Made by a program: the position numbers and the translations under genes
Assembly (NCBI GenBank): GCA_947568835.1
Contig: OX387602.1
Span: 14,931,021-14,995,020 of the forward strand
Length of the DNA stretch: 64,000 bases
Origin: Protonemura montana
Taxonomy: Eukaryota > Arthropoda > Insecta > Plecoptera > Nemouridae
Reading direction: 5' to 3'
Shown: one piece after another, positions 33,201 through 34,811 of the stretch
Layout of the letters: each line of letters begins with the position of its first letter
Numbering within the stretch: the first letter of the stretch is position 1
The notes under the pieces: model-generated
The model's database searches: none
What the model was told of the DNA's origin: nothing
The model's input: the letters and a program-made list of their open reading frames with translations, nothing else

Positions 33201-34811
33201 AATAAACCTAGAATTGGAGAGAGGGCAATTTCCTTTCAAAAGTGTATGGCTGGTCGGGCAACATAAAAGAGCATTACCTTGTAATACCTTTGATAGATCG
33301 GATAAAGTACACTTGACTAGTCGCACTTAAGCCTGAATGCTACCGAACAAAGACATAAAAAAACTAAAGCTTCAAGTCCATCCCGTTAAAAATTAGAGCA
33401 GTTGAATCAATATCAACCTGTTCTCATATGCTGTGTTCGAATTTTGACGGAGGGATTAATTAATGAATAAATTGGCAACCTAAATACTTACCAGACAGTG
33501 CCCTGTGCGCCAACACCTTTCGGGGTAAGCCTCTCATAACGAATCGGGACAGAGAATTGTGTGTCCCCGAATTCGACGGTCGTAAACATGATGAATTGTG
33601 GCCGTGACAGAGTAGTTAAACTACTGCCGGCCCACTGAACCGATCAAACCAAAAGTAAGCCAATTTATTTGCAATCAAATCGTCGAGTACCAGGTTCTGC
33701 CCATAAATGATGGCACGCTGCAAGTCTAATAGTTTTTCTATTCGCACCCACCACCGTTCAGCAATGATCCTAATTGTGAAAATTATAGAAAACATGCTTT
33801 CTAGGTGAAGAAAATTGTCAAGATTTGAAAAAACTCAAGAGACAGAATTTCCATGTAGTTGACATAGTGGCATTTCAAGTAGAATGAAAGTTAGACAGAT
33901 TTTTGTACACTTTTAAAATTAAGTACTTGTTGCATACATTGAAAACCAATATGACTGGAGAAAGCAAGATTCCTTTCTTTCCCCCTTTTCATTCATATTA
34001 CACAAAAGTATTAATAAATATCAATTATGTAACCATGTGCCAGTACATCAACACATAAGAATATATGTATTTCAAATAAATTTGTAAAAAGATAGTGAAG
34101 AAGTGTGGCATGCGAATAAAATTTTTAGAGCTTGAAAGGCGGTCATCATTTATTTATGGCCCGGCCCTTAGAAAACTCTAAAACAATCAAAATCAACAAT
34201 TATTAACAAAATAATAACGTCGTAAATACAATAAAACTGGTAAGCTGAATGCATTGACAAACTACATAGAGTGTTCTAAATCAGGCAGGTAGCCTGCAAG
34301 TGACCAAATACAGATCCAATTGATAAAAACCATGAATCCAATTAAAATTTACGTAAATACAGCATTCAAATATCTACAAGCAATCAATAACAAATAAGAA
34401 ATATCTTCAGAGAAAATTGTAACCAGATAGTGTTCAAGATTGGCAATAGTTATTCAATGCTCCAATAATTTTTAATAAAAGTAAAGATATTTAAGTGGTA
34501 ATAGGAATTTTTTTCTCTGAAGCTGAAAATTGTAGCGGCATGTAATACAAGATTCTTTTCTAAAAAAAAAAAACTACTTTAATTGCAATAACTAGTCTTT
34601 AGACCCTGTAAAATTGCCGACAACAAGCCTAACGTGATTAAGCATCTCGTCAGCGAGGACTAGGTACTTACCAGACTATCCCTTGAGCTCCGGAACCGAT
34701 TGGCTTCAGATTCTGGTATCGTTTGAGTATGGTGAACTTGGTGTCCCCAACTTCCACCGTGTAGAACATGGAGGAAGGCCGGGCTGTCATCTTCGGACCG
34801 AGATGAGGCAT
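27039..34811 (-). CDS. bsk: Jun N-terminal kinase (basket/JNK)
   Basis: Exons in transcript order: 34811-34672, 32777-32648, 32339-32142, 31371-31107, 30252-30094, 29748-29624, 27221-27039; 1200 bp, 399 codons plus stop. Features: Gly-rich loop GSGAQG (residues 39-44), 'VAIKK' Lys61, 'HRDLKPSN' with catalytic Asp157, 'DFG' Asp175, and the JNK activation motif Thr-Pro-Tyr at 189-191 ('[12 protein letters not shown]'). Known role: MAPK phosphorylated by MKK4/MKK7 (Hep in flies); phosphorylates Jun in stress, dorsal closure and apoptosis signalling. The start is supported by an in-frame TAG upstream. An acceptor precedes the ATG (exon begins 34849), so a 5' UTR exon lies further right. A second first exon is at 33589-33492. 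Confidence 0.95.
29624..29748 (-). CDS. bsk: bsk exon 6: end of kinase C-lobe
   Basis: Encodes '[20 protein letters not shown]', then '[20 protein letters not shown]' and Ala. Acceptor GATTTCAG, donor AATGCG|GTAAGT, phase 0. Confidence 0.95.
30094..30252 (-). CDS. bsk: bsk exon 5: MAPK insert region
   Basis: Encodes '[20 protein letters not shown]', then '[20 protein letters not shown]' and '[12 protein letters not shown]'. Acceptor TATTGCAG, donor CAAAG|GTTAGT (weaker). Confidence 0.95.
31107..31371 (-). CDS. bsk: bsk exon 4: catalytic and activation loops
   Basis: Starts '[20 protein letters not shown]', holds DFG and the TPY activation motif, and ends '[15 protein letters not shown]'. 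Acceptor TTCTTTCAG, donor TATAG|GTACGT, phase 1. This is the region that is alternatively spliced in vertebrate JNK1/2 (exon 6a/6b); only one version is seen here. Confidence 0.96.
32142..32339 (-). CDS. bsk: bsk exon 3: hinge and helix E
   Basis: Encodes '[20 protein letters not shown]' to '[10 protein letters not shown]', including the hinge '[18 protein letters not shown]' found in all JNKs. Acceptor TCTTTGCAG, donor CACAGG|GTGAGA, phase 0. Confidence 0.96.
32648..32777 (-). CDS. bsk: bsk exon 2: ATP-binding lysine
   Basis: Acceptor TTTTCCAG. Encodes '[20 protein letters not shown]', then '[20 protein letters not shown]' and 'HKN', with the catalytic Lys in VAIKK. Donor AAAAAT|GTAAGT. The first base completes Cys (TG|C) with either first exon. 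Confidence 0.95.
33492..33589 (-). CDS. bsk: bsk alternative first coding exon 1b (diverged duplicate)
   Basis: ATG at 33589 opens 32 codons plus two bases: '[20 protein letters not shown]', then '[12 protein letters not shown]'. It ends at the same phase and almost the same donor word (CTG|GTAAGTA) as exon 1a. Aligned with 1a, '[20 protein letters not shown]' and '[10 protein letters not shown]' are recognisable, so this is an exon duplication. The Gly-rich loop keeps GxGxxG but as GVGAQG; ILK becomes VPI. The frame and splice donor have been kept despite heavy sequence change, which argues for a functional alternative first exon. Use in transcripts is not shown here. Confidence 0.75.
33634..33638 (-). 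promoter_or_regulatory. Possible initiator (TCAGT) before bsk exon 1b
   Basis: TCAGT, the arthropod initiator core, lies 45 bp upstream of the exon 1b ATG on the minus strand. Exon 1b would then have its own promoter. Weak on its own. Confidence 0.25.
34672..34811 (-). CDS. bsk: bsk exon 1a: canonical N-terminus and Gly-rich loop
   Basis: Reads '[20 protein letters not shown]', then '[19 protein letters not shown]' and 'SGAQGIV', ending in phase 2 at GTCTG|GTAAGT. The core matches human JNK1 ('[20 protein letters not shown]'). An alternative start is the Met at 34790. The 5' UTR part of the exon reaches 34849, after TTCTATTGCAG. Confidence 0.93.

Follow-up and report, generated by a model that had tools for sequence, protein, structure and literature searches.

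A diverged tandem copy of the first coding exon in the JNK gene of the plecopteran Protonemura montana, probably retained as an alternative first exon

Background

Can a single JNK gene encode two kinases that differ at the ATP-binding loop by carrying two related first coding exons, or is the second exon a remnant? JNK is a highly conserved animal signalling enzyme, and the isoform changes described in the excerpts of the literature cited here lie away from the ATP loop. We analysed a stretch of 64,000 nucleotides of Protonemura montana (GenBank assembly GCA_947568835.1, contig OX387602.1, positions 14,931,021 to 14,995,020 of the forward strand; hereafter the window), in which the JNK gene has an upstream first coding exon, 1a, and a downstream one, 1b. 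Judged from its sequence, 1b is probably an old tandem duplicate of the JNK first coding exon that has been kept by selection as an alternative first coding exon.

Results

Structure of the JNK gene and its two first coding exons

A complete JNK (basket) gene lies on the minus strand of the window; its exon 1a and exons 2–7 together comprise 399 codons. The coding part of 1a (34672..34811, minus strand, 140 nt) specifies 46 residues plus TG and ends in phase 2; it is read from the ATG at 34811, and in-frame ATGs also occur at 34790 and 34769. On the same strand follow exons 2 (32648..32777), 3 (32142..32339), 4 (31107..31371, where DFG and the TPY activation motif are read), 5 (30094..30252), 6 (29624..29748) and 7 (27039..27221, with the stop codon TAA at 27041-27039). 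The 399-residue 1a form has one full protein-kinase domain (Pfam PF00069 Pkinase, 212 bits, 263 of 263 profile positions), and the gene is recognised as JNK by this domain, its JNK sequence and the TPY motif.

Exon 1b is located between 1a and exon 2. Its coding part runs on the minus strand from an ATG at 33589 through 33492 (33492..33589, 98 nt, 32 residues plus TG, phase 2), and 1082 bases separate its ATG from the end of 1a. Both exons finish GTC TG/gtaagta (the slash marks the exon end). Their phase is the same, and each splices in frame to position 32777, the start of exon 2, which is common to the 1a and 1b forms. The intronic side of the 1b donor (33482..33491, minus strand) begins with seven bases equal to those of the 1a donor at 34671, and the two donors, CTG/GTAAGTA, agree in all 10 bases. 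A small matrix built from 11 other donors of the JNK and neighbouring FKBP genes ranks them 5 and 6 among 745 GT sites on the minus strand between 27 and 40 kb. The preliminary description had reported two related first exons about 1.1 kb apart, each with an ATG and the same phase, and had quoted their peptides correctly; what it called a near-identical donor is identical over these 10 bases. Its statement that 1b drops the longer N-terminus holds only if the first ATG of 1a is used, which adds 14 residues; from the third ATG both forms start with MF.

Several other features were seen around these exons. A possible in-frame microexon of 33 nt (28011-28043, minus strand, 11 residues, phase 0) lies in the interval between JNK exons 6 and 7; its donor, AAG/GTGAGTC, ranks 2 of 745, its acceptor is weak (rank 275 of 684), and its product would be a basic, Ser-rich insertion after exon 6. 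In the downstream neighbour, at about 19900-22640 on the minus strand, a peptide joined by eye has an FKBP domain (PF00254) with TPR repeats (TPR families) behind it, and we take this gene to resemble FKBP6/shutdown. A run of 24 C, counted by eye, occurs about 1 kb upstream of exon 1a (35862-35885, minus strand). No RNA families or tRNAs were found in the window at threshold.

Homology and origin of exon 1b

When the window was searched with 1b (tblastn), 1a was the only other significant match (59% identity, E 5.5e-9; next match E 2.9), the two peptides sharing 19 of 32 residues. The 98 nt of 1b correspond to the last 98 of the 140 nt of 1a, and the pair is alike in length, phase and sequence, as expected of a tandem-duplicated exon. 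Between 2.4 kb around 1a and 1.3 kb around 1b, the best match covers 48 bases and is intronic (E 7.5e-4); all others are weaker. The fusion of 1b and exon 2 has fly JNK as its best PDB match (5awm, 1.9e-33). The description of 1b as a duplicated, diverged and coding-constrained first coding exon is upheld by the homology search and by the codon-position pattern, the simulation and the residue comparison reported below.

At E 0.8 or better, the window yielded no second copies of JNK exons 2–7, and the JNK protein, searched against the window, gave a sole match beyond exons 1–7 and 1b that is due to chance (E 0.88). A whole tandem JNK gene was rejected because the window is without such second copies. 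In the genome assembly of the same species (258,480,905 bases, 34 contigs), a search with 1b plus exon 2 scored at least 12 places. Of the listed matches at E 0.2 or better, three chiefly involve the exon-1 part, namely 1b, 1a and the p38 first exon, and the rest chiefly exon 2; four further places have E 0.4–5.4, and among these 12 places there was no second genomic copy or retrocopy of 1b. No relatives were confirmed in two collections without animals, viral_contigs (11 pattern-matched stretches) and genome_contigs (40 stretches).

The mitochondrial COI of this assembly is 87% like that of the fly, and like the JNK sequence it marks the DNA as arthropod. A chromosome-size contig of the assembly, C4, carries two COI stretches about 15 kb apart. 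The first (C4:5761315-5762292) equals mitochondrial contig C34 in score and identity, and the second (C4:5777201-5777815) is shorter; these are either recent nuclear mitochondrial insertions or a misassembly.

Against p38 of the same genome, 1b matches at 16 of 32 residues and so does 1a, and the changes that 1b has in common with p38 and that are absent from 1a are limited to I22V, L23P and K30T. Descent of 1b from p38 was rejected, since 1b is nearer to 1a (19/32) than to p38 (16/32), and we therefore regard 1b as a copy of JNK. In p38 the first coding exon (C2:12535740-12535841) stops where JNK exon 1 does in the protein, and in the same phase. Residue identity between 1b and human JNK1 (18/32) is about the same as between 1b and 1a, so the residues cannot date the duplication.

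Coding constraint on exon 1b

Of the 39 differences between the 32 shared codons of 1a and 1b, 24 fall at third positions, as against 7 at first and 8 at second positions, and 12 of the 19 identical residues use a different codon. When these differences were placed at random, one of 200,000 trials reached as many at third positions. Between 1a and 1b, dN is 0.30 (NG86) to 0.36 (ML), but dS is beyond estimation (no value from NG86, 13.6 from ML, and failure of two of the four estimators).

Neutral decay of 1b was simulated in 30 settings, each of 4000 runs, that combined five times and two ancestors with three levels of acceptance of amino-acid changes in 1a (never, at 10% or freely), the mutation time being equal on both branches. 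The observed pattern, at least 24 third-position and at most 15 first- or second-position differences, arose in at most one of 4000 neutral runs in each of the 30 settings. At times of 0.9 and 1.3 per site, 12–43% of neutral runs reached 24 third-position differences, yet none in these 12 settings had so few first- and second-position changes. At a neutral time of 0.2 per site, ATG and frame were still intact in 31–40% of the simulated copies. A neutral duplicate is ruled out by the codon-position pattern together with the simulation. Because the pattern is so rare under simulated neutral decay, we conclude that 1b was long maintained as coding sequence; it was under coding constraint since the duplication, for much of its history. 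This test spans the whole time since the duplication and is therefore compatible with a recent loss of 1b.

Residue changes at the ATP pocket

Thirteen of the first 32 residues of the 1b form differ from 1a. We compared 30 of the 32 positions in 1a, fly JNK and human JNK1, with fly and human letters taken from alignments; two positions whose fly letters do not come from these alignments were left out, one of which has Thr in 1b against Tyr in 1a and human JNK1. Exon 1b departs from 1a at seven of the nine variable positions and at five of the 21 invariant ones (Fisher P 0.0125), a preference for positions at which JNKs vary. The five changes at invariant positions are T21S, N28R, I32K, S34V and I39T, in what we take to be human JNK1 numbering, and two of them lie in or beside the P-loop glycines.

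The preliminary description had noted the change of the P-loop from GSGAQG to GVGAQG, which is S34V, and had missed I32K. On the sequence, I32K is the more striking of the two. In nearly all known kinases the residue immediately preceding the first glycine of the P-loop is hydrophobic, and 1b has lysine for isoleucine at exactly this place (JNK1 Ile32 / JNK3 Ile70). Passages of PMC9501523 and the preprint PMC11326381 count JNK3 Ile70 with the hydrophobic residues that line the ATP pocket. In 1b the three P-loop glycines, the P-loop Ala-Gln, the Val after the loop and the Arg-Tyr of the first strand are all kept; with glycines, Ala-Gln and Val retained, the loop is not simply broken. Against the Pfam profile, exons 1–5 of the 1b form score 184.7 bits and those of the 1a form 190.1 (5.4 bits lower for 1b), and the alignment of the 1b form starts at profile position 6 rather than 1. 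With lysine in place of Ile32, the 1b product might be defective. The different ATP handling or dominant-negative action suggested earlier for 1b would be more plausible with I32K than with S34V alone.

Arrangements for choosing between 1a and 1b

A candidate AG acceptor upstream of 1a (34850..34851, minus strand) would open an exon from 34849 and leave a 38-base leader before the first ATG. Its score is normal (8.08, rank 15 of 684 AGs between 27 and 40 kb), which suggests an upstream noncoding exon. Before 1b, the candidate element is TCAGT (33634..33638, minus strand), 45-49 nt upstream of the ATG, which may be an initiator or a weak acceptor. As an initiator it would place A+1 at 33636, with a DPE-type TGTCAC at +28 to +33 and a 47-base leader; with Inr and DPE in their usual definitions, this match is modest, as 13 of 332 Inr sites on both strands of the window have the same DPE-type match. 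As an acceptor, its AG (33636-33635), which is preceded by a T-rich stretch, would open an exon from 33634 with a 45-base leader and scores −0.53 (rank 258 of 684). In leave-one-out scoring, 11 of the 12 reference acceptors exceed this value, the exception being that of exon 7 (−7.78). Since one real acceptor scores much lower still, the score is too poor a filter to exclude the 1b acceptor.

If 1a is spliced to 1b at the AG of 33636-33635, the reading frame stops after six further codons, so that only one of them can productively be the first coding exon. The two promoters postulated in the preliminary description are one of two workable arrangements; the other is a splicing choice, and either would yield one form or the other. 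Our slight preference is for first-exon choice, since a passage of PMC3228551 regards multiple promoters as the most probable explanation of homologous initial exons; the same passage allows that untranslated first exons can make apparent initial exons truly mutually exclusive. Terminal exons are likewise treated apart in an excerpt of PMC5740500.

Discussion

The duplication of the first coding exon, its frame, its donor and its past coding constraint are established by the DNA itself. We infer that 1b is transcribed and that transcripts beginning with it would splice to the common exons 2–7, giving a 385-residue JNK predicted to be identical to the 1a form except in the first 32 residues. 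Promoter or first-exon choice would decide between 1a and 1b. I32K and S34V would lower or alter ATP binding, in which case the 1b product would be a weakened or differently tuned JNK that may still fold and dock. A bolder version, to which we give a rather low probability, is that the JNK gene encodes its own, separately controlled damper of the stress pathway: the 1b form, with lysine in the ATP lid, would bind activators, scaffolds and substrates and phosphorylate poorly, or it would have an altered nucleotide preference or inhibitor sensitivity.

Other readings have to account for the same observations. Chance resemblance, or a duplicate that never worked and was never constrained, draws some credit from the mere 98 coding bases on which the comparison rests, but the identity and E-value in the window, the same phase and donor, and a codon-position pattern incompatible with simulated neutral decay make it extremely improbable. 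A stronger rival takes 1b for a relic that has recently fallen silent, either a long-used alternative exon or the first exon of a tandem JNK copy otherwise lost. The constraint signal is historical and would fit such a relic, as would the weak 1b acceptor and the five changes at positions invariant in the three compared JNKs, including the two in or beside the P-loop glycines. Second JNK genes also occur in arthropods, more than one Bsk being entered in four of eight species columns of the table excerpted from PMC4833078, and an excerpt of PMC7462981 reports JNK3 transcripts of Anopheles gambiae to be 100-1000 fold scarcer than those of JNK1. Against this, the ATG, frame and highly ranked donor of 1b are intact, and the window lacks second copies of the other JNK exons; we regard the relic as unlikely.

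If 1b is used, 1a and 1b might instead be internal mutually exclusive exons spliced from a common upstream noncoding exon, a possibility that overlaps with our preferred reading and that, on this condition, we consider quite conceivable though short of even. The normally scoring acceptor of 1a, the AG behind a T-rich stretch that gives 1b its leader, and the early stop on inclusion of both exons speak for such an arrangement, and the role of untranslated first exons allowed for in the passage of PMC3228551 points the same way. The 1b acceptor, however, lies below nearly all reference acceptors, no upstream exon was identified, and that passage itself holds multiple promoters to be the most probable basis of homologous initial exons.

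If 1b is indeed a long-maintained alternative first exon, one JNK gene would supply a natural variant of the catalytic core with an altered ATP loop, and this variant would bear on how ATP-site JNK inhibitors are used in arthropods. The preliminary description held that JNK isoforms usually vary in the C-lobe exon or the C-terminus. This fits the excerpt of PMC8586503, in which vertebrate isoforms are told apart by a pair of C-lobe exons and by their flexible ends, the flexible N-terminal extension among them. Judged by titles and the opening lines of abstracts, none of the literature matches listed deals with an alternative first coding exon of JNK, and no literature match combined GVGAQG with JNK; as the search covered neither subscription papers nor gene-database annotations, a 1b isoform may well already be annotated.

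Several known systems come close to the arrangement described here. Vertebrate JNK alpha and beta and the N- and C-terminal variants belong to the same family and likewise give several isoforms per gene (excerpt of PMC8586503), but they change the C-lobe, through mutually exclusive exons, or the flexible ends, whereas 1b changes strand 1 and the P-loop. Anopheles also has more than one JNK form, JNK1 and JNK3; according to excerpts of PMC6264519 and PMC7462981, however, these are two genes and not two first exons of one, and an excerpt of PMC3233564 discusses the missing start of one Anopheles JNK gene. Drosophila silver has homologous initial exons with separate promoters, in a gene unrelated to JNK. 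Tandem-duplicated alternative exons are a described class, in which 40 of 236 human events alter the N-terminus (excerpt of PMC9741552). The same excerpt supplies a close likeness to 1a and 1b, FYN, whose FynB and FynT forms arise from tandem-duplicated mutually exclusive exons over the N-terminal part of the kinase domain, including the ATP site. Because FYN swaps an exon over its ATP site, an alternative ATP-site exon is not unprecedented. The FYN exons lie within a tyrosine kinase gene and also cover the SH2-kinase linker; 1b, unlike them, belongs to a MAP kinase, of which it is a first coding exon, and has a charged residue at the ATP lid's base. The exon swap proposed for 1b is of a known kind, and among the literature matches listed none has it in this gene and at this place.
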